A program made the translations under genes and the position numbers. From Fodinicola acaciae (lineage in GTDB: Bacteria; Actinomycetota; Actinomycetes; Mycobacteriales; HKI-0501), in NCBI RefSeq assembly GCF_010993745.1, contig NZ_WOTN01000001.1, positions 1,925,235 to 1,989,234 on the forward strand: a DNA stretch of 64,000 nucleotides, written 5' to 3'. Shown here piece by piece: positions 39,132-49,323 of this stretch (the first letter of the stretch is position 1; each line of letters begins with the position of its first letter). The notes below the pieces were generated by a model. The model was given only the letters and a program-made list of their open reading frames with translations, had not been told where the DNA came from and ran no database searches.

Positions 39132-40172
39132 ATGCGACGCATGCTCATCGCGATTTTCCTTGCCATCACAGTGATAACCGGCGCGACCGCGTGTCGCGAC
39201 TCGCGTGTCGTGCCGGTCGGCGCCGACGGCAAGCCGCGGATCGCCATCATGGTCGGCGGTCTGGAGAAGGTCATCTACCTGCCGGCCATGCTGACCGAGC
39301 GGCTCGGTGGCTTCCGTGCGCAGGGACTGGACGTGAAGCTGCTGAGCCAGCCGTCCGGCGCCAACGCCGAGACCGCGTTGCTGTCCGGCGACGTACAAGG
39401 CGTGGTCGGGTTCTACGACCACACGATCGACCTGCAGGCCAAGGACCAGTGCATCACCAGCGTCGTCCAGTTTGCCGACGTACCAGGCGAAGTCGAGGTG
39501 GTCGCCGCCGGCAAGGCCGACCGGATCAGGACCCCGGCCGACTTTCGCGGCCGCAAGCTCGGCATCACCTCGCTCGGCTCGTCCACCGACTTTCTCACCA
39601 AGGCGTTGGCTTCCAAGGCCGGGGTCGGCGTCGACGACTACACGCCGGTCAAGGTCGGCGCCGGCCAGACGTTCATCGCCAGCATGAAAAGTGGCGGCAT
39701 CGACGCCGGCATGACCACCGACCCGACCGTCGCGCAGCTGACCACCAGCGGCCAGGGCAAAATCATGCTCGACCTGCGTACGGAGGCCGGCACGCGCGCC
39801 GCCCTCGGCGGGCTCTATCCGGCGACCGCGTTGTACATGAAATGCGAGATCGTGCAGCGATATCCCGACGCCGTACAGAAACTGGCCAACGCGTTCGTCG
39901 CCACGCTGCGCTGGATCAAGTCGCACACCGCCGAGCAGATCGCCGCGGCCATGCCGCCGTCGTACGCGGCCGGCGGCAAGGCGTTGTACGTCAAGGCGAT
40001 CCGCGACAGCATCGGGATGTTCAACGCCGACGGCCGGATGGACCCCGCCGGAGCGCGGAACGTGCTGCGGATCCTCGGTGGTTTCTCGGTGAACGTGAAG
40101 CCGCGCAAGGACGAGATCGACCTGTCGAGGACCTACACGACGGCCTTCGTCGACAGGGTCCCGAAAGCCTGA
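39132..40172 (+). CDS. ABC transporter substrate-binding lipoprotein, NitT/TauT type
   Basis: A 346-residue lipoprotein: signal peptide with lipobox ITGATAC and lipid-bearing Cys21, then an NMT1/SsuA-like fold (GGLEKVIYLPAMLTERLGGF, LLSGDVQGVVGFYDHTIDL, FRGRKLGITSLGSSTDFL). It captures the substrate outside the membrane. The ligand is not predictable, but may be the signal of the divergent CitA-type kinase. Confidence 0.92.
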   Translation: MRRMLIAIFLAITVITGATACRDSRVVPVGADGKPRIAIMVGGLEKVIYLPAMLTERLGGFRAQGLDVKLLSQPSGANAETALLSGDVQGVVGFYDHTIDLQAKDQCITSVVQFADVPGEVEVVAAGKADRIRTPADFRGRKLGITSLGSSTDFLTKALASKAGVGVDDYTPVKVGAGQTFIASMKSGGIDAGMTTDPTVAQLTTSGQGKIMLDLRTEAGTRAALGGLYPATALYMKCEIVQRYPDAVQKLANAFVATLRWIKSHTAEQIAAAMPPSYAAGGKALYVKAIRDSIGMFNADGRMDPAGARNVLRILGGFSVNVKPRKDEIDLSRTYTTAFVDRVPKA

Positions 40173-40309: not shown

Positions 40310-41386
40310 GTGTGCGACGCGGACGTTGGGAGTGCGGTGAGCCTGCTGGAGCCGGGGGCCAGGGTCAGTGACGCGGTGGTCGTCGACCGGCCACTCGGCC
40401 AGGGTGCCTTCGCCGAGGTTTACCGCGTACGCCACGAATATCTCGGCTGGCAGGCACTGAAGCTGTTCAAGCGGGTCGGCTCTCTCGGCGAGACGCGGGC
40501 GATGCTGGACGAGGCGCGGCTGCTGTCGACCATTGGCCACCCCAACATCGTGCGGCTTTTCGACGCCGGCACGGTGCGCACCGGCCACGGCACGCGCGGC
40601 TTCTTCACGATGGAGTACGTGGCCGGCGGCAGCCTGGAACGGCTGGTCGACTCCTACCGCGGGATCGTGCCGGCCGACATCGCCGTCGGAGTCGCCGAGC
40701 AACTGGCCAACGGTCTTGCCGTGGCGCATGCCCAAAATCCGCCGATCATCCACCGCGACCTCACGCTCGCCAACGTGCTGGTCGGCTATGACGCCGGTGG
40801 CCTGCGGGTCCGGATCAGCGATTTCGGACTGGCCAGACGCGCCGACCCGGTCAGCCTGCTGGCCAGTGCACAGGGCACGTACGCGTTCATGGCCCCGGAG
40901 GTCGTACGCGAGGACGGCTACAGCCGCGCCGGCGATGTGTGGTCGATCGGCACGATCGCCTACCTGTTGCTCACGAATTCGTTGCCGTACGCGGCAAAGA
41001 CCGAGGCCGGGCTGCGATCGACGAGGCGGTTCGAGGAAACGCCGCTGCCGCCGAGCGCGTACAACGACGAGGTCGATGCCGAGCTCGACGACATCATCAT
41101 GTCGACGCTCGAGCCGGAGCCTTCGCTGCGACCGCGCGACGCCGGCGCGTTGGCGCGCCGATTTCACGACCGCCAAACGAAAAGCGTACGGGTCGCGACA
41201 CCGCCGACGCCAGCGCCGAGCGATCGCGCGCAGCGGTTGGCGGCCGAGGCGCTCGAACTGGCGCGGCGACCGGAAACGCTGGCGGAGGCCGCGGATCGCA
41301 TGGAGGAGGCGGTCACCCGCTCACCTCGGCTGCGCGACCAGCACATGGCCAAGCTGTTGCTCTGGCGGCGCGGGGTGATGATGTGA
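40310..41386 (+). CDS. Soluble Ser/Thr protein kinase-like protein, first gene of the Hsp70 operon
   Basis: A 358-residue protein. The kinase domain (~20-275) has the Gly loop LGQGAFAEVY, Lys51 in ALKLF, HRDLTLANVL (Asp150, Asn155), DFG at 171-173 and MAPEV. The catalytic loop has Thr where Ser/Thr kinases nearly always have Lys (HRDLKxxN), so activity may be altered. The C-terminal ~80 residues are helical with no membrane span, unlike PknB-type receptors. Start GTG 40310. Its stop overlaps the next gene (GTGA). As first gene of six overlapping genes it probably phosphorylates the chaperone components. Confidence 0.9.
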   Translation: MCDADVGSAVSLLEPGARVSDAVVVDRPLGQGAFAEVYRVRHEYLGWQALKLFKRVGSLGETRAMLDEARLLSTIGHPNIVRLFDAGTVRTGHGTRGFFTMEYVAGGSLERLVDSYRGIVPADIAVGVAEQLANGLAVAHAQNPPIIHRDLTLANVLVGYDAGGLRVRISDFGLARRADPVSLLASAQGTYAFMAPEVVREDGYSRAGDVWSIGTIAYLLLTNSLPYAAKTEAGLRSTRRFEETPLPPSAYNDEVDAELDDIIMSTLEPEPSLRPRDAGALARRFHDRQTKSVRVATPPTPAPSDRAQRLAAEALELARRPETLAEAADRMEEAVTRSPRLRDQHMAKLLLWRRGVMM

Positions 41387-42585
41387 CGACCGCGCAGCGG
41401 ATGCGCGAAAGCGCCGTGCCGGATCTCTATCGCCGCAACGCGTTCCGGATCACCGGCCTGGCCACCGACGCGACCGGCCGGGTCGTACGCGAACGCCGGC
41501 AGAAGCTCGTCACCGCCGCCGCGTTCGGCGGTCACACGCCGACCGAGTGGCACCTGCCGGAAACGCCAGACGAGGCACAGATCCGTGCCGCGTTCGAGAC
41601 AATCGGCGATCCGGCGCTGCGGATCGTCGACGAGCTCCTCTGGTTTTGGGGAGACGACACGGCATGCGGCTGCGAGCCCGCGCTCCACAGTGCGCATGAC
41701 GCGGCCGTACGTGCACACGCGCGTGCCCTGGACGCCGAGCTGTCCGGCGATCCAAGCGGTCCATTGTGGACAGAGGCAGCCCGGCAGTGGTCGGACGCGT
41801 TCCACCGGACCGGATTCTGGAAACATCTGCGGCGCCGGATCGAAACCTTGGACGATCCTCGGCTCACCGAGGACGCCATCCAGTCCATGCACGCCGAGCT
41901 GCCGCGTACGCTCATCCGTCCCCTTGTCCAGCTGGCGATCGCCTCGCCGGAGCCGGCGAAACTGTTGTCGCGTGCCGCCGAGTGGGACATCGGCAATCAC
42001 ACTCTGCGCACGATCGTGGAGGAGACGGTCGCCAGCGACGTGGACCGGATCACCGAGCACCTGCAGCGCGCCGGAAACCAGCTGGACGCGGGAAAACTCG
42101 TCGACGCGGCGGACAGCCTGAAGGATGTGGTCCTGCCGGCGCTGCGTCAGGTCGAACGCCTCGCCCCGCACGCCGAACACCGGGTGGTGGCGCGCGTACG
42201 CGAAAAAATCGCCGTGTTGTTCAACAACTGCGCGCTGGCGATCGCCGAGAAGATGCCGTACGGCCGCGGTGACCTGATCCAGCAGCTGTTCGCGACCGCG
42301 CTCGAGCTGGCGCTCGAAGCCGACACGCTGGAAACCATCCAGAAAAACGCCACCATGGCGCGCACCGCGACGGCACGGCGAGCGGCGAGCACGACCGGCA
42401 AGGCCATCGGCGTCATCGGCACCGTCATCGCGATCCCTGCCGGCATCGCACTGGTGGTGGCGCTGGTGATGCTGGCTTTCGGCAACCACGGCGGCTTCGA
42501 CGCGGTCTGGGGCTGGGCCTGCCCGGCGATGATCGTGGCCGGCGCACTCGGCTGGCTCGCCGGCAAGCTGGAAGGCCTCGGATGA
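41383..42585 (+). CDS. J-domain-like membrane protein, paralogue 1
   Basis: A 400-residue protein that I do not recognise as a named family. Residues 16-90 look like a degenerate J domain: YRRNAFRITGL, the helix RVVRERRQKLV, then AAFETIGDPALR and LLWFWG. The HPD tripeptide of true J proteins is absent. Cys95, Cys97, His102 and His105 (CGCEPALHSAHD) form a possible metal site shared with the next gene. A helical middle follows, then two membrane helices near the C-terminus (AIGVIGTVIAIPAGIALVVA and CPAMIVAGALGWLAG). It overlaps both neighbours by 4 nt. Likely role: a membrane anchor or client adaptor for the Hsp70. Confidence 0.75.
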   Translation: MTTAQRMRESAVPDLYRRNAFRITGLATDATGRVVRERRQKLVTAAAFGGHTPTEWHLPETPDEAQIRAAFETIGDPALRIVDELLWFWGDDTACGCEPALHSAHDAAVRAHARALDAELSGDPSGPLWTEAARQWSDAFHRTGFWKHLRRRIETLDDPRLTEDAIQSMHAELPRTLIRPLVQLAIASPEPAKLLSRAAEWDIGNHTLRTIVEETVASDVDRITEHLQRAGNQLDAGKLVDAADSLKDVVLPALRQVERLAPHAEHRVVARVREKIAVLFNNCALAIAEKMPYGRGDLIQQLFATALELALEADTLETIQKNATMARTATARRAASTTGKAIGVIGTVIAIPAGIALVVALVMLAFGNHGGFDAVWGWACPAMIVAGALGWLAGKLEGLG

Positions 42586-43943
42586 GCCCCGTCGACCTCG
42601 CGACCGTTGACGTCTATCGGAAAAACGCCTTCCGCGTGACCGGATTGGCGACCACGGCCACCGGCCGCGACATCCGCAACCGGCGTCAGAAACTCGTGTC
42701 GGCCGTACGCGTCGGTGCCGCCGATCTTCCGTCAGAGCAGGAGCTTTCCGCCGCCTTCGAGGTGATGTCCTCGCCGGTCGACCGGCTCGCACACGAGATC
42801 TTCTGGTTTTGGGGGTCGTCAACCGACTGCGGCTGTCCTGAGGCCGTACACGCCGAGCACGACGATGCCGTACGAGCGTTCAACACCGAGGATCCCGAGT
42901 CGTTGGCCGCGGCCGCCAAGCACTGGAATCTCTTGTTTTCCGGCGGTCTTCGCGATCATCTGCGGCGCCGCCGGGAGGCCATAGACGATCCACGGCTCGA
43001 TGCGGCAACTGTCGACGACCTGGCGGCGTCGGTGCCGTTGGCGTTGGTCTGCCTCACCGTACGAATGGCTGCCGACGACGAGCGTTATCTGCCGCATCTG
43101 CGCACATGGCGGGTGTCGCCAGAGCTGATCGAGGACGCGGTCGACAGGATGGTTTCGCCGCTCCTGGACGACATCGTCACGGCGACGGACGAGGCGCGCC
43201 GCCTGCTCAACGACGACCTGCCGGACAACGCGGCCGAGTTGGTGCTGGAAAAGGCGAAACCAGCGCTGGCCCGGATCGGTCCGCTCGTCGCCGAGGTCAC
43301 GCACCGGCGAGCCGCGACGGTCGCCAATGACGCGGCTGTCGTGCTGAACAACTGCGCTGTCGAACTCGGCGAGGCGGCACGAAAAGCCGGCGACTACGAC
43401 GCCGATCTCGCCGACCAGATCCTCGGATGGTTCGACACCGCGCTCGAACTCGTCACCGTCGACGAGGACCGCTGCTCGATCCTGGAAAACCGTACGCTGA
43501 TGCCGCGGTCCACGCCGCGCCGGAAACCCAAGCCGGCCTCGAAAAAGCGGACGGATCCGGCGACCATGCGGTCCGTACACGGGTGGATCGACGGCGTGAC
43601 AGCCGCCGGCGACGCCTACTATCTCTATCCCCTGCTCGCGGAGTGGCGACGCGAGGTGACGGACCCGGATTTCCGTACGGCGTTGGACGTCATGCTGATC
43701 AGCCATCTGCCCGACGAGCAGCAGCGCCGCGCGACGCGGCAACGAAACTGGTGGATCGGCGGCGCGGTGGCCGCCGGCGTCGTCCTCATGACTTTTCGTT
43801 ACGCCGGCCTGATTCCGGCACTGCTGGTCGTGGTCATCGCGGCCGGTGCCGCCGGAATGATCGCACTGCGGGCCAGGATCCGGCTGGACCGCCGGATCGC
43901 CGTCCACCTCGATCCCGAGAAAACCCCCGGAGGACTACTGTGA
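42582..43943 (+). CDS. J-domain-like membrane protein, paralogue 2
   Basis: A 453-residue paralogue of the previous product. The head (12-78) repeats the pattern: YRKNAFRVTGL, DIRNRRQKLV, AAFEVMSSPVDRL and IFWFWG, again without HPD. CGCPEAVHAEHD gives Cys83, Cys85, His90 and His93 in register with paralogue 1. The helical middle keeps VVLNNCAVELGE, matching VLFNNCALAIAE of paralogue 1. A basic linker (~300-320) and two membrane helices (WWIGGAVAAGVVLMTF, LIPALLVVVIAAGAAGMIAL) precede a short cytoplasmic tail. The two may form a hetero-oligomer. Confidence 0.75.
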   Translation: MSPVDLATVDVYRKNAFRVTGLATTATGRDIRNRRQKLVSAVRVGAADLPSEQELSAAFEVMSSPVDRLAHEIFWFWGSSTDCGCPEAVHAEHDDAVRAFNTEDPESLAAAAKHWNLLFSGGLRDHLRRRREAIDDPRLDAATVDDLAASVPLALVCLTVRMAADDERYLPHLRTWRVSPELIEDAVDRMVSPLLDDIVTATDEARRLLNDDLPDNAAELVLEKAKPALARIGPLVAEVTHRRAATVANDAAVVLNNCAVELGEAARKAGDYDADLADQILGWFDTALELVTVDEDRCSILENRTLMPRSTPRRKPKPASKKRTDPATMRSVHGWIDGVTAAGDAYYLYPLLAEWRREVTDPDFRTALDVMLISHLPDEQQRRATRQRNWWIGGAVAAGVVLMTFRYAGLIPALLVVVIAAGAAGMIALRARIRLDRRIAVHLDPEKTPGGLL

Positions 43944-44458
43944 CCGGCCGGCTAGCCGAGTGGCGCGCATCCGTGCGCCAGCACCGATATCGCAAGGCGT
44001 TTCGCATCCCACCGCCGACCTGGGACGAGGAACAGCAACGCTGGCTGGCCGACACCCTCGGCGCGGCTCCGGAGGTGGTGCTGCCGGCCGAATCCACCGC
44101 GGTCGACCAGGAGGCGCTGGCGGTCTCGGCCACGAATCTCTGGCGAGCGCTGCGAAAACTCCAGGACGCCGACGACACGGCCCCGGCCGTACGGCATGCG
44201 CAGCACTATCTGCGCAAGGTGCGGCAGACGCTCGCCGACGGCGGCCTGGTCATCTACGACCACGACGGCGAGCTGTTCCATCCCGGCCTGTCGCTGGAGG
44301 TGCTGGCCAGAGAGACCAGCGCCGGCGCGGAAAAAGAGACGGTGGCCGAGACCGTACGACCGACGGTCTATCTCGGCGACGAGCGGATCCAGCTGGGCCA
44401 GGTGATCGTGGTCGGCCCGCCATTCGAGCAGACACAGGAGGGGGACGGCGGTGCGTGA
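43940..44458 (+). CDS. Minimal GrpE-like nucleotide exchange factor
   Basis: A 172-residue protein. The C-terminal half follows the GrpE beta domain: GLVIYDHDGELFHPGLSLEV, then ETVAETVRPTVYLGDERI and LGQVIVVGPP. The preceding helix (WRALRKLQDADD to HYLRKVRQTLADGG) matches GrpE's four-helix region. The long N-terminal coiled coil of classical GrpE is replaced by ~60 residues of Pro/Trp-rich sequence. Directly followed, with an 8-nt overlap, by an Hsp70 gene, so it most likely exchanges nucleotide on that protein alone. Confidence 0.75.
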   Translation: MTGRLAEWRASVRQHRYRKAFRIPPPTWDEEQQRWLADTLGAAPEVVLPAESTAVDQEALAVSATNLWRALRKLQDADDTAPAVRHAQHYLRKVRQTLADGGLVIYDHDGELFHPGLSLEVLARETSAGAEKETVAETVRPTVYLGDERIQLGQVIVVGPPFEQTQEGDGGA

Positions 44459-46961
44459 CACCATCGACTTCGGCATCGACCTCGGCACGACGAACAGCGC
44501 GATCGCGGTGGTCGACAACGGCGAGGTCAAGGTCATCAGGAGCAACCGGCGGATCGACTACATCCCGTCGGCGGTGATGATCAGCGGCAAAGGGGAAGTG
44601 CGGGTCGGCGACAGCGCGCTTCCGTACGTCTACAGCGATCCCGCCAACGCGGCCGCGGAGTTCAAGCTGAAGATGGGGATGGCCAACGCCGGCCGCGCCT
44701 TCGCCAACTCCGGCCGCCGGCTGACGCCGACCGAGCTTTCCGCGGAGGTGCTGAAAACGCTGCGGTCGTTCGCGGCCCGCGACTACGGCCAGCCGCCGGA
44801 GTCGGCGGTCATCACCGTCCCGGCGGCTTTCGCGCTCAACCAGACCAACGCCACCAACGAGGCGGCCAAACTGGCCGGCTTCACGGTGAACTGTCCGCTC
44901 GTGCAGGAGCCGACCGCGGCGGCTTTCGCGTACGGCTTCGCCGACCAGTCCGAGCGTGCCTACTGGATGGTCTTCGACCTCGGCGGCGGCACCTTCGACG
45001 CGGCCATCGTCACCAAGCGGGACGGCGAGATGCAGGTGCTCAACCACGCCGGGGATCCCTATCTCGGTGGGAAACTCATCGACTGGGCGATCGTCGAGCG
45101 ACTGGTCGCACCGACCGTGGCGGCCGAATACCGGCTGGCGGACTTCACTCGGGACAATCCGCGCTGGGAGACCGAGTTCCTGCGGATGAAACAGGCCGCC
45201 GAGGAAGCCAAGATCCAGCTCTCGCAAACGCATCACACCGACGTACTCGTCGACTTTGGCCGCCGGTCCGAGCTCGAGGCGTTCGAATACGCGCTGACAC
45301 GAGAGCAGCTGGAGCAGATCGCGACACCGTTCTATCTGCAGGCGATCAACCACTGCCGGAACGCGCTCGCGGAAGGAAACCTGAGCCCGGCCACCATCGA
45401 CCGGCTGCTGCTGGTCGGCAGTCCGACGCTCGCGCCCGGCCTGCGCGAGCTGCTCGCCGATCCGCGCGACGGACTCGGCATTCCGTTGGACCACAGCCAG
45501 GATCCGTCGACCGTCGTCGCGCGCGGCGCCGCCCTGTACGCCAGCACCGTACGGCTGGAGCGGCCGATGGCCGCGCCGAAAGCCGGCGAATTCGCTGTGG
45601 AGCTGTCGTACGAGCCGAGCGTCGACACGCTGCAGCCGACCGTCGGCGGCCGGGTGTCGACGGCGTCCACAGTGGACTGGACGACGTACTCGGTGTCGTT
45701 GCGCGCACCGGGCCGACCGCACGACTTCGACAGCGGACGGCTGCCGTTGCGGGCGGACGGCACCTTCCTCACCGAGGTGCAGGTGCAGCCGGACACCACG
45801 ACCCGGGTGTCTATCCAGCTGGTCGACGGCACCGGCCGGCCACAGCTGCTGCGGCCGGACTCGTTTTCCATCACGCACGGCGGTCCGATGTTTGGCGGCC
45901 CGGTTTTGGCGCAGACCCTGGGGATCGGCCGCGCCGACGACACTTTCGCACGGATGCTGGAAAAGAACAAGCCGCTGCCGGCCGAGACAACACAGCCGTT
46001 CGAAACCACGGTCGCGCTGCGCCGTGACATGGTCGACTCCGTCGTACGCATCCCGGTCTTCGAAGGCGAGAACAACCGGGCCGAGCGCAACCGCGAGATC
46101 GGCATGCTGGAGATCAAGCCGACCGACGTACGCATCGACCTGCCGGTCGGCACGCCGATCGACGTGACGCTGAAGGTCGACACCTCGCGGCTGGTCGCCG
46201 TGTTGGCCGAGATTCCGTCCCTCGGCACCTTTTTCGAGGCGACGCTCAACCTCGACCAGGTCGAGCCGCCGAGCCCCGACGAGTTGCTGCGGATGCTCGC
46301 CGACACCGAGCGCAGGCTCACCGAGCTGCACGCACAGGCCGAGCGGTCCGGATCGCCGGAAGCCCTGACGCCGCTGGCAAAACTGGACGAACAGAACATG
46401 CTGGAAAACACCAGGGAACAGGTCCGTGCGGCGCGGGTCGACCGCGCCGCGGCCGCCACCGCCGACGAGCGTATCCGCGAGATCGAGGCCATCCTCGACG
46501 AGGTCGAGCAGCTGATCAAGCTGCCGGCGCTGTTCAAGGACCTGCAGGACGCGCTGTCCGACTGCGCCGACGAGGTGCGGCGCGACGGTCGCGGCGAGGA
46601 CCAGCGCGAGCTGGACAACATCAAGAAGCGCGCCGGCGAAGCCATCGCCAACCGCGACGGCACCGCCGCGACCGCGCTGCTCGAACGCACGACCGAGCTG
46701 TATTTCGACGTACGACGGCGCAGCCCCACCTGGGACGCGGAGATTTTCTATGCACTGCGCCGGATGCGTGACCAGATGTCGCCGTCCGCGCAGGCCGACA
46801 CGCTGTTGTGGGAAGGCGAGCAGGCCATCGCGGCCGGCAACTATCGCGTGCTGCCAGGCATCAACCAGCGGCTGCGCCGCCTGCTGCCACCCGGCGTGAC
46901 GGAACCGACGCCCGGCAGCGGCCGCAGCGGCGTTGGCCAGCAGCGAAGTGGTGGCCGATGA
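44451..46961 (+). CDS. Divergent Hsp70 with inserted beta domain and long coiled-coil tail
   Basis: An 836-residue protein; DnaK is about 620. The N-terminal ATPase (1-~375) keeps phosphate-1 GIDLGTTNSAIAV, QEPTAAAFAYG (152-162), phosphate-2 FDLGGGTFDAA (175-185) and LLVGSPTLAPGLRELL. The usual hydrophobic linker is missing. Instead a ~90-residue Ig-like stretch (~395-480, YSVSLRAPGRPHDF, RVSIQLVDGTGRPQLL) precedes a recognisable substrate-binding beta domain (LGIGRADDTF, KNKPLPAE, IPVFEGENNRAERNREIG, DLPVGTPIDVTLKVD). The last ~270 residues are helical. No membrane helix. Start GTG 44451. It should be an ATP-driven chaperone for the neighbouring membrane proteins or their clients. Confidence 0.9.
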   Translation: MRDTIDFGIDLGTTNSAIAVVDNGEVKVIRSNRRIDYIPSAVMISGKGEVRVGDSALPYVYSDPANAAAEFKLKMGMANAGRAFANSGRRLTPTELSAEVLKTLRSFAARDYGQPPESAVITVPAAFALNQTNATNEAAKLAGFTVNCPLVQEPTAAAFAYGFADQSERAYWMVFDLGGGTFDAAIVTKRDGEMQVLNHAGDPYLGGKLIDWAIVERLVAPTVAAEYRLADFTRDNPRWETEFLRMKQAAEEAKIQLSQTHHTDVLVDFGRRSELEAFEYALTREQLEQIATPFYLQAINHCRNALAEGNLSPATIDRLLLVGSPTLAPGLRELLADPRDGLGIPLDHSQDPSTVVARGAALYASTVRLERPMAAPKAGEFAVELSYEPSVDTLQPTVGGRVSTASTVDWTTYSVSLRAPGRPHDFDSGRLPLRADGTFLTEVQVQPDTTTRVSIQLVDGTGRPQLLRPDSFSITHGGPMFGGPVLAQTLGIGRADDTFARMLEKNKPLPAETTQPFETTVALRRDMVDSVVRIPVFEGENNRAERNREIGMLEIKPTDVRIDLPVGTPIDVTLKVDTSRLVAVLAEIPSLGTFFEATLNLDQVEPPSPDELLRMLADTERRLTELHAQAERSGSPEALTPLAKLDEQNMLENTREQVRAARVDRAAAATADERIREIEAILDEVEQLIKLPALFKDLQDALSDCADEVRRDGRGEDQRELDNIKKRAGEAIANRDGTAATALLERTTELYFDVRRRSPTWDAEIFYALRRMRDQMSPSAQADTLLWEGEQAIAAGNYRVLPGINQRLRRLLPPGVTEPTPGSGRSGVGQQRSGGR

Positions 46962-47818
46962 TCGACCTCGTCCTCGATCGCGCGCGTACGGCCGCACGCG
47001 CCGGCGATCTCGATCGCGCGTTGCAGCTGCTCGACGGCGCGAGGCTGGACAATGCCGGCCTCGACCTGCTCGCACGCGTACACGCACAACGCGGTGACTA
47101 CGACAAGGCCGACGCCTGCTGGATCCGTGCCGGCGAGCCGGAAACGGCTCCTGGCCGCGCCGAGATCGCACGGATCCGCGCGGGCCGGTCGGCGCGGCCG
47201 TTCTGGCAGCCTGGCCGCGTGGCGGTCGCCGGTGTCGTGGCCGCCGGCTTGGCGGTGACCGGTGGCGTGACCTGGGTCAACTCCCTGCCTGCGGCGCCGC
47301 CGGACCCGCGGGTCGTCGCCGCACAGAGCCAAATGCGGTCCGTACAACAGCAGAACGCCCAGGAGAAGGCGCAAAAAGCGGCTGCCGCCGCGGCGCTGGC
47401 CGCCGCTGTGGATCGCACGGCGGCGAGCTTGGCGGTGCCCGGGGTTCAGGTGCTCAAACACGCCGACTGGGTCGAGGTGCGGTTCACCAAAGGCGTGTTT
47501 TCGTACGAGGACGCCCTTACCGACGAAGGCACTGAGCGTCTGCGGCAGGTCGGCACGAAGCTGCGCGGCCTGCCGGCCGCTGTCACGGTGATCGGCCACG
47601 CGGTGCCCGTCGCCGGTGGTCCCCAGCGGGGCGGCTCGGTGTTGGCACTCGCGCGTGCCCTGGTCGCCGCACGCGAGCTGGCCCGTACGAGCGGACGGCC
47701 GTTGACCGCCTTCGTACTCACCACCGGCGACCAGACCGCCAATCCATTCTCGACGAAGGCGGCCAACCGTACGGTCACCCTCGCCGTCCGCCCCACCGCC
47801 CCGGCCCGGCCGTCCTAG
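46958..47818 (+). CDS. Single-span membrane protein with TPR-like head and OmpA-like tail
   Basis: A 286-residue protein. Residues 1-70 look like two tetratricopeptide helices (DLDRALQLLDGARL, QRGDYDKADACWIRAGE). A membrane helix (VAVAGVVAAGLAVTGGVTWV, ~89-108) is followed by a Gln/Ala coiled coil (~120-150) and an OmpA/MotB-like domain (TDEGTERLRQVGTKLRGLP, VTVIGHAVPV, ALARALVAARELARTSG, AANRTVTLAV). The extracytoplasmic tail could bind cell wall. ATG overlaps the Hsp70 stop. Last gene of the operon. Confidence 0.75.
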   Translation: MIDLVLDRARTAARAGDLDRALQLLDGARLDNAGLDLLARVHAQRGDYDKADACWIRAGEPETAPGRAEIARIRAGRSARPFWQPGRVAVAGVVAAGLAVTGGVTWVNSLPAAPPDPRVVAAQSQMRSVQQQNAQEKAQKAAAAAALAAAVDRTAASLAVPGVQVLKHADWVEVRFTKGVFSYEDALTDEGTERLRQVGTKLRGLPAAVTVIGHAVPVAGGPQRGGSVLALARALVAARELARTSGRPLTAFVLTTGDQTANPFSTKAANRTVTLAVRPTAPARPS

Positions 47819-48165: not shown

Positions 48166-49323
48166 ATGGCCACGCTCAGCGACGAGGAACGCGCGATCGT
48201 CGCCGTCGTGGCCGAGTTCGTCGACCGCGAGGTGCGGCCGGTCGCGCGCGACCTGGAACACGCCAACGAATATCCGGAAGAACTCATCGCCAAGATGAAG
48301 CAGCTGGGGATCTTCGGACTGGCGATCCCCGAGCCATACGGCGACGTCGCCGTCTCGACGCCGTGCTATGTGCGGGTCACCGAGGAACTGGCGCGCGGCT
48401 GGATGAGCCTGGCCGGAGCGATGGGTGGCCACACCGTCGTCGCCAAGCTGATCATGACTTTCGGCACCGACGCACAGAAACAACAGTGGCTGCCGCGGAT
48501 GGCGACCGGCGAGGTACGCGCGACGATGGCGCTCACCGAGCCAGGTGGCGGCTCCGACCTGCAGGCGCTGACCACCACCGCGGCTCGCGACGGCGACGAA
48601 TACGTGGTCAACGGCACCAAAACCTGGATCACCAACGCCCGCCGCTCCGGCCTGATCGCGTTGCTGGCGAAGACCGATCCACGCGCACGTCCGGCGCATC
48701 GCGGCATCAGCATCCTGCTGGTCGAGCACGGCGACGGCCTCACCGTGTCACGGGACCTGCCAAAGCTTGGTTACAAGGGCGTGGAGAGCTGCGAGCTTTC
48801 CTTTGCCGACTACCGCACACCGGTCTCCGCTCTGCTCGGCAAGGTCGAGGGGCAGGGGTTCGCGCAGATGATGAAAGGCCTGGAGATCGGCCGGATCCAG
48901 GTCGCCTCGCGCGCGCTCGGAGTGGGTCGCGCCGCCTTCGAGGACGCGCTGCGATACGCGCAGGAGCGGGAAAGTTTCGGCAAGCCGATCTGGCGGCACC
49001 AGTCGATCGGCAACTACCTCGCCGACATGGCGGCCAGCCTCACCGCCGCGCGACAGCTGGTGCTGCACGCGGCCGAGCGTTACGACAGCGGTGACCGCAG
49101 CGATCTGGAGGCCGGCATGGCCAAGCTTTTCGCCTCCGAGACCGCGATGACGATCGCCCTCAACGCCGTGCGCGTCCACGGCGGCTACGGCTATTCGACC
49201 GAGTTCGACGTGGAGCGCTATTTCCGTGACGCCCCGCTGATGATCGTCGGCGAGGGGACCAACGAGATCCAGCGCAACGTCATCGCGGCACAGCTGGTCG
49301 CCAGAGGCGGGCTGCCGGATTGA
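48166..49323 (+). CDS. Acyl-CoA dehydrogenase
   Basis: A 385-residue flavoenzyme with MALTEPGGGSDLQAL (FAD/substrate loop), TKTWITNA, the RESFGKPIWRHQSI helix and the C-terminal VGEGTNEIQRNVIA containing the catalytic Glu. It performs alpha,beta-dehydrogenation of an acyl-CoA; chain preference is not predictable. TACCAT lies seven nt before the ATG at 48166 (leaderless arrangement). It stands alone with no electron-transfer flavoprotein gene nearby. Confidence 0.93.
   Translation: MATLSDEERAIVAVVAEFVDREVRPVARDLEHANEYPEELIAKMKQLGIFGLAIPEPYGDVAVSTPCYVRVTEELARGWMSLAGAMGGHTVVAKLIMTFGTDAQKQQWLPRMATGEVRATMALTEPGGGSDLQALTTTAARDGDEYVVNGTKTWITNARRSGLIALLAKTDPRARPAHRGISILLVEHGDGLTVSRDLPKLGYKGVESCELSFADYRTPVSALLGKVEGQGFAQMMKGLEIGRIQVASRALGVGRAAFEDALRYAQERESFGKPIWRHQSIGNYLADMAASLTAARQLVLHAAERYDSGDRSDLEAGMAKLFASETAMTIALNAVRVHGGYGYSTEFDVERYFRDAPLMIVGEGTNEIQRNVIAAQLVARGGLPD

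Follow-up and report, generated by a model that had tools for sequence, protein, structure and literature searches.

The operon analysed here raises the question of how an Hsp70 could be switched by a partner protein in which the usual switching contact is missing. It occupies positions 40310 to 47818 of a 64,000-nucleotide stretch of Fodinicola acaciae DNA (contig NZ_WOTN01000001.1, positions 1,925,235 to 1,989,234), hereafter the window, and consists of six plus-strand genes in a row; the stop/start overlaps of 4, 4, 4, 8 and 4 nucleotides that had been read in an initial annotation of the sequence were reproduced by translation. The genes encode, in order, a Ser/Thr protein kinase (K), two J-like membrane proteins (J), a GrpE-like protein (E), a divergent Hsp70 (H) and a TPR-transmembrane-OmpA-like protein (T). 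The strongest new point is that, as read from the sequences, the trigger between J protein and Hsp70 is lost on both sides within one conserved cassette, and what stands out is the combination of a conserved partner lacking the HPD motif, the losses on the Hsp70 side and retained ATPase motifs.

It is established that an Hsp70 is switched through the contact between the HPD motif on one side and Arg167 and the linker on the other. For DnaK, the accessible text of one study (PMC13012618) describes that His33 of the motif touches Leu391 of the linker and that Asp35 touches Arg167; according to simulations reported there, which build on mutant data, substitution of either contact blocks the step to the stimulating state, and the rescue of the dead DnaK R167A by DnaJ D35N implies that an altered contact can function. 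A family that keeps the ATPase motifs together with J-like and GrpE-like partners, and that is devoid of both sides of the contact, would thus offer a natural test of what the switch requires.

On the partner side, the two J-like proteins of the window are encoded at 41383..42585 (gene 2, + strand, 400 amino acids) and at 42582..43943 (gene 3, + strand, 453 amino acids). Gene 2 has an HPD-less J-like N-terminal domain and a C-terminal transmembrane segment, and gene 3 has a J-like domain, a helical body and a C-terminal transmembrane region; the two are paralogues with 37% identity, and among the loci examined the window locus was the only one with two full J-like genes. Transmembrane segments were scored by hydropathy peaks, and clear C-terminal peaks were obtained at residues 348-366 of gene 2 and 410-428 of gene 3 (the latter with a marginal one at 142-160); a transmembrane segment was present in 77 of the 84 J-like proteins of the family. 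When the domain set was assembled, 80 of 85 proteins (the 84 and gene 2) fitted the start-motif pattern, L072, L088, L092, L110 and L133 being left out, and the HPD motif was found in none of these 80 domains. In only one of the 84 full proteins (L078) does an HPD occur, at residue 236, a position that is not part of the J-like domain. Because HPD is absent from all 80 domains, the proteins are labelled J-like only; the annotated J proteins stood as a conserved membrane partner but not as ordinary J proteins. A canonical J domain was likewise not found in any of 8,870 open reading frames (ORFs) of 95 loci, and the same profile detected the DnaJ of the genome at 2.5e-41.

The resemblance to J domains was examined by structure prediction and by profile comparison. 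The AlphaFold2 model of gene 3 (pLDDT 88.5) showed helices at residues 16-20, 28-43, 52-63 and 65-73 followed by the helical body, and these helices are ordered and spaced as in a J domain. A first hhalign comparison of the J-like proteins with 53 template rows gave a probability of 0.3, and 24 of the 53 rows were frames with a chance HPD; the later comparison used the 29 rows that passed a J-domain pattern, with the J-like rows trimmed to the domain. Profile-profile alignment of the 80 J-like N-terminal domains with the 29 J domains reached a score of 29.9 (P 3.2e-5) over 63 columns, compared with 18.8 for the best of 200 column shuffles and 8.1 for the reversed profile. As the 29 rows were chosen by HPD, they are unusable as a control for HPD frequency. 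The profile of these 29 real J domains reached no J-like member at E 1e-3, none of 37 J-like members matched the Pfam DnaJ families at E 0.01, and in Pfam gene 2 had no match and gene 3 one sub-threshold match to DUF3040. Outside the J-like domain, a Septum_form domain was seen after the transmembrane helix in 4 of the 37 scanned proteins (for example L135:6830-8929), which is a possible alternative link to the wall, and a zinc-ribbon-like stretch, CWFC...C..C, was noticed by eye ahead of the transmembrane region in the J-like proteins of L043, L069, L071 and L120.

On the chaperone side, gene 5 (44451..46961, + strand, 836 amino acids) matched Pfam HSP70 with 252.8 bits against a cut-off of 20.6 (7.2e-75). 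Its family retained the ATPase motifs, with DLGTT in 86/86 and GGGTFD in 84/86 members, and the catalytic motifs were also conserved in a 27-row Hsp70 alignment. A linker of the VLLLD type was not detected by pattern in any of the 86 family Hsp70s, two of which are cut short, and the equivalent of Arg167 was Pro in 76 of them, Thr in 2, Ile in 1, unplaced in 2 and Arg in 5; all five with Arg belong to one Streptomyces group. About 110 residues are inserted at the position of the linker: the spacing between the nucleotide-binding domain (NBD) and the substrate-binding domain (SBD) was 119-155 residues, with a mean of 129, in the 40 of 86 members in which both markers could be located, against about 20 in the DnaK of the same genome.

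In the AlphaFold2 model of H (pLDDT 89.4), the NBD spans residues 1-365, an inserted beta domain about 381-478 and the beta part of the SBD (SBD-beta) 488-600, and the helical C-terminus reaches about 810. Foldseek returned a DnaK integrative model at the top (6.1e-39) and DnaK 4b9q next (2.3e-38). By VIA-align, residues up to 603 were aligned with the BiP chains 6asy, 5e84, 6zmd and 7b7z (Z 46-47; root-mean-square deviation (rmsd) 2.4-3.4 across 466-472 residues), so that the likeness to BiP extends through the substrate-binding beta domain; with full-length ATP-state DnaK including its lid, the rmsd was >30. In some VIA-align rows, H residues near 478-483 end at the linker position, and the place of the linker in the model may persist with another sequence.

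The genome possesses a separate canonical DnaK (837 bits), with a VLLLDV linker and the Arg167 equivalent, which adjoins GrpE and an HPD-bearing DnaJ (G000:C4:292-295 kb). Since this canonical set is present elsewhere, the Hsp70 of the operon is an additional one, and the proposal of a separate second Hsp70 set was borne out, the operon Hsp70 not being the only DnaK of the genome.

The E protein (gene 4, 43940..44458, + strand, 172 amino acids) resembles the C-terminal half of GrpE, its residues 65-158 aligning to positions 72-164 of the 165-position GrpE profile. Ten of 32 E members matched Pfam GrpE at E 0.01 or better (best 8.7e-5), the window protein matched the genome's own GrpE weakly (9e-6 in a 252-protein set), and among solved structures the E family profile hit a GrpE best, although with an E of 0.15 that is not significant. 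The T protein (gene 6, 46958..47818, + strand, 286 amino acids) was assigned from its family profile, an alignment and a weak transmembrane segment (residues 88-106, mean hydropathy 1.79), such a segment being present in 50 of 60 family T proteins. The family profile matched the structures of PomB (8.1e-10), MotS, TssL, OmpA and MotB, and Pfam recognised OmpA in 7 and TPR_2 in 14 of 22 T members; the window protein alone gave no Pfam OmpA match and only a sub-threshold TPR match, and the Planctomycetota T proteins of L121 and L126 did not align to the OmpA part. With regard to the annotated fixation to the membrane by three proteins, the hydropathy peaks are clear in genes 2 and 3 and weak in gene 6, and none was found in the kinase, the GrpE-like protein or the Hsp70.

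The kinase (gene 1, 40310..41386, + strand, 358 amino acids) matched Pfam Pkinase with 144.6 bits against a cut-off of 31.7 (4.9e-42) and carries HRD, DFG and a helical-looking C-terminal tail; within the family of 56 kinases, HRD was conserved in 50 and DFG in 55. It is a soluble kinase, as first annotated. Upstream of H and on the same strand, 11 loci carry a gene of a cluster whose representative, the L094 protein, showed a Pfam FHA match and a sub-threshold winged helix; two more clusters (14 loci) are FHA-like by eye, with representatives lacking a Pfam match. The putative FHA genes fit a possible phospho-signal. Gating of the Hsp70 machine by the kinase, as annotated, is an inference.

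As to whether these genes belong together, a profile of the two J-like proteins detected the family in 13 of 394 genomes of the class, and an independent search with the Hsp70 subfamily (E <=1e-90) recovered the same 13; in a phylum-wide draw the Hsp70 search found 1 of 296 genomes, which was the window's own, and the J gene was present in 2 of the 3 genomes of the family. Using a conserved Hsp70 stretch against one genome each for 84,980 species, 85 places were confirmed, a lower bound as exact peptide patterns were required, and the best 80 were kept. Near H, these 80 loci had E in 78, J in 77, T in 56 and K in 42, a gene being accepted if it lay within 6.5 kb on the strand of H, and K if it also reached E 1e-90 or better. 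By this rule, L126 (K further off) and L087 (two longer kinase genes directly 3′ of H) were scored as K-less; J was missed in three loci, L084 and L118 being truncated by the end of a contig and L115 encoding J on the opposite strand. The family sets comprised 84 J, 84 E, 86 H, 60 T and 56 K proteins, and nine loci were removed (the repeats L085, L086, L097, L098, L104 and L130, the split L034, the cut L041 and the distant L047). The presence profiles were iterated from the window proteins and may draw in weak relatives, and the home-made gene caller used for the loci often sets starts too early.

The cassette was found in >20 actinobacterial genera and in Nitrospirota and Planctomycetota, with K-J-E-H-T, J-K-E-H-T, E-H-T-J and J-E-H as frequent gene orders; outside the actinobacteria, the order K-J-E-H-T is that of the Candidatus Magnetominusculus locus (Nitrospirota, L120) and of the Planctomycetota loci L121 and L126. 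The neighbourhood is not a matter of chance, because it is repeated in dozens of genomes, and the homologues are not scattered, in agreement with the expectation of a conserved neighbourhood. Co-occurrence of all six families, as initially proposed, was confirmed for the J-E-H core but not for every member, K and the OmpA-like gene being optional. The conserved core comprises an Hsp70 of some 830 residues with ATPase motifs, a putative GrpE-like factor and a predicted membrane-anchored J-like protein, joined in many lineages by a soluble Ser/Thr kinase and a TPR-transmembrane-OmpA-like protein, both assigned by profile.

An Hsp70 tree of 84 rows was computed by a quick method with SH-aLRT support and a midpoint root; it carries long-branch warnings for L120 and the window Hsp70 and composition warnings for five rows. 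The five non-actinobacterial rows, L120 among them and two of them unclassified, formed one starred group. A group of 17 rows with support 94 (Nocardia, Streptomyces, Virgisporangium, Microlunatus and Pseudonocardia) had J-E-H only, with no K or T by the counting rule; other kinase genes lie near some of these loci, and some are on short contigs. Streptomyces copies were spread over several distant groups of the tree and Nocardia copies over two, and two cassette copies each were present in Streptomyces sp. cf386 and Nocardia macrotermitis. Pairwise distances correlated with those of H at r 0.90 for T, 0.87 for J, 0.78 for E and 0.53 for K, values computed without an unrelated control gene and of a kind that shared species history also raises. 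The nearest neighbour fell within the same H group for 36/38 J, 40/42 E and 27/27 T proteins, compared with 39/43 for H itself. Between L112 and L116, only the J-E-H block could be aligned (about 5 kb with a short gap), and the flanks could not. We read the cassette as a unit whose genes are probably transferred and passed on jointly, and to which K and T are often added. A recent transfer between 'Rhodococcus rhodnii NRRL B-16535' (L108) and Kibdelosporangium aridum (L117) was rejected: as the 92% identity spans nearly the whole 20 kb, one of the records is probably misnamed. Separately, a more distant set of kinase, J-like protein and 846-residue Hsp70 was observed at L047 (G200:C68:122000-141000), in a genome that also has the main cassette.

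Taking these results together, the most likely reading, which we hold at about even odds, is that the genes encode a dedicated Hsp70 machine docked at the membrane, linked to a kinase in many cases and coupled to its J partner in an altered way, a function that we infer from the sequences and models. In such a machine, the J-like protein would tether the Hsp70 to the membrane on its cytoplasmic side and would set off hydrolysis via a contact other than that of HPD with Arg167 and the linker, the GrpE-like protein would perform nucleotide exchange, and T would connect the complex to the wall. The kinase would phosphorylate J, H or T, and the neighbouring FHA protein where present, and so engage the machine under envelope stress; its clients would be membrane or envelope proteins. 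If this is true, bacteria would have an Hsp70 machine that is part of the membrane and is in many cases accompanied by a kinase and a wall-type domain, possibly an envelope quality-control or sensing device of soil and plant-associated actinobacteria.

Several results weigh against this reading and have to be set beside it. The J-like fold is derived from a pairwise profile match, with a probability of 72.7 in the local and 18.4 in the global mode, and from predicted helices; when the whole J model was searched with Foldseek, nothing significant was obtained (best E 5.7e-3, designed helical proteins and TPRs coming first), and the VIA alignment of this model covered mainly residues 183-376, that is, the helical body outside the J-like domain. 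The window E protein reached 19.9 bits with Pfam GrpE (6.5e-4), below the cut-off of 25.8, and is therefore filed as GrpE-like; the match to the C-terminal half stood, and the plain label did not. In the window T protein, GHAV replaces GHTD and the Asp is missing. This Asp acts in wall binding, and wall binding by the window copy is therefore doubtful; GHTD was retained in 15 of 60 T members and a wider pattern in 25. The annotated OmpA-like tail is supported as an OmpA-family domain at the family level. The kinase was uncounted in 38 of the 80 loci and its distances track those of H least, so that control by a kinase does not belong to the core. The VLLLD pattern is also missing from the three other non-DnaK Hsp70s of the genome, two of them carrying Asp or Gln at the place of Arg167 and the third being unmatched by pattern; since these divergent Hsp70s share the losses, loss of linker and Arg alone is no pointer to a new coupling. 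For that reason we lowered slightly our already modest confidence in a re-invented trigger, and we now hold it as a tentative suggestion that hydrolysis is driven by a different J-like surface by way of the inserted beta domain, perhaps only once phosphorylation has occurred, within a complex that spans from cytoplasm to wall. Lastly, the Fodinicola feengrottensis copy (L034/L130), the nearest to that of the window, is broken into several ORFs for K, J and H, either by draft errors or by decay. In sum, the initial interpretation was partly supported: right in outline, it was overstated in its J, GrpE and OmpA labels.

Among the alternatives, a conflict or immunity system, in which the Hsp70 set senses unfolded phage protein or an envelope breach and the kinase or J/T is the effector, seems unlikely to us. 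The searches recognised neither an effector nor a nuclease domain in the cassette proteins, and a plasmid collection searched with genes 2 and 4 gave no match; on the other hand, the occurrence is patchy and mostly actinobacterial, some strains have two copies, and the isolated J-E-H block common to L112 and L116 has unaligned flanks. The kinase matched the mad6 and PD-T4-6 models, but these matches may reflect the common kinase fold only. HSP70, GrpE and a DnaJ fusion also occur in the theme of the GAP1-N2 GTPase systems, for which a role of this kind has been predicted, as far as the accessible text of PMC7159879 tells. When the 129 nearest flanking proteins were scanned, PADLOC gave 11 families, none of which was present in more than two proteins, and the Pfam families were varied; the conflict role put forward in the initial annotation is thus unsupported by the flanking genes tested.

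Pam16 of the mitochondrial import motor lacks HPD and is inhibitory for Pam18, and by analogy the J-like domain might be inhibitory too, parking the Hsp70 at the membrane and leaving the true trigger to the housekeeping DnaJ or the kinase. The complete absence of HPD and the two paralogous J-like proteins of the window would agree with it; yet in most Hsp70 members the contacts on which an ordinary DnaJ relies, those of Arg167 and the linker, are missing as well, and the 95 loci encode no canonical J domain. We consider this rather improbable, although it could hold in the Streptomyces group, whose five Hsp70s retain Arg. That the Hsp70 is a structural or scaffolding protein for nucleotide-switched assembly at the wall, and not a folding machine, seems less probable still. 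Although the inserted beta domain, the long C-terminal helices, the missing linker sequence and the fact that some T or J proteins carry wall- or septum-type domains speak for it, the SBD-beta region and ATPase motifs are conserved, the model of H agrees with BiP and DnaK, and the presence of a GrpE-like factor points to cycling.

A machine with altered J coupling can also be set against known systems. With canonical DnaK-DnaJ-GrpE, the cassette shares the ATPase domain, the SBD-beta and adjoining genes for J-like and GrpE-like partners; it differs in having no HPD, no VLLLD linker and, in most members, no Arg167, in the roughly 110 residues between NBD and SBD, in an E protein that resembles only the C-terminal half of GrpE, in a J protein that is a membrane protein, and in the kinase and OmpA-like protein of many cassettes. 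Pam16/Pam18 are membrane-linked J-type proteins, one of them HPD-less, which act with Hsp70 and GrpE, whereas the bacterial cassette has no HPD partner encoded next to it and often has a kinase and a wall-type domain. Wall binders of the MotB, PomB, Pal and OmpA type have, like T, one transmembrane helix followed by an OmpA-family domain, but T has an N-terminal TPR unit, and its window copy is without the GHTD Asp. The HSP70-GrpE-DnaJ theme of the GAP1-N2 GTPase systems, predicted from gene neighbourhoods (Kaur et al. 2020, PMC7159879), resembles the cassette in that actinobacterial gene sets contain HSP70, GrpE and a J-type protein and are membrane-linked; in the accessible part of that paper, the theme is built around a GTPase and around FNIII proteins that carry a DnaJ or TPR fusion, and the cassette has a kinase and a TPR-transmembrane-OmpA protein instead. 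FNIII was absent among the seven Pfam families that matched any of 37 J-like proteins at E 0.01, and of the 108 Pfam families matched by the 129 flanking proteins, the 25 most frequent included no GAP1-type GTPase. CoCoNuT Hsp70 units and DnaK duplications, as described in the accessible parts of PMC11090510 and PMC11019930, respectively, also differ from the cassette. Among the matches listed in open-licence PMC texts, supplementary tables aside, we found no description of this gene set or of the joint loss of HPD, Arg167 and linker.

The cassette appears to stand alone in its genomic setting, because the flanking genes read by translation as an ABC transporter substrate-binding protein gene upstream (39132-40172) and, as the next long gene downstream, an acyl-CoA dehydrogenase gene (48166-49323). 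An Rfam scan of the 64-kb window gave no match at gathering scores, and a search of the window with the consensus of the HAIR heat-shock operator gave one site with three mismatches at 1006, away from the operon, against a chance mean of 0.81.

Further Hsp70 genes were observed elsewhere in the genome. At L048 (G000:C4:122000-140000), a further Hsp70 of 541 amino acids lies within a gene island together with genes for TerD-AIM24, an AAA ATPase, DUF475/TerC, a zinc ribbon, a C-C bond lyase and PRTase_2-TRSP. At L049 (G000:C1:3202600-3204900), a GrpE gene (201 amino acids), above the Pfam cut-off, lies directly 5′ of a further Hsp70 of 538 amino acids, and the 18-kb stretch around it contained no match to the J-like, kinase or OmpA-like proteins of the cassette. 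At L050 (G000:C1:1345600-1347400), an Hsp70-like protein was found to bear a proline-rich tail and a C-terminal hydrophobic segment.

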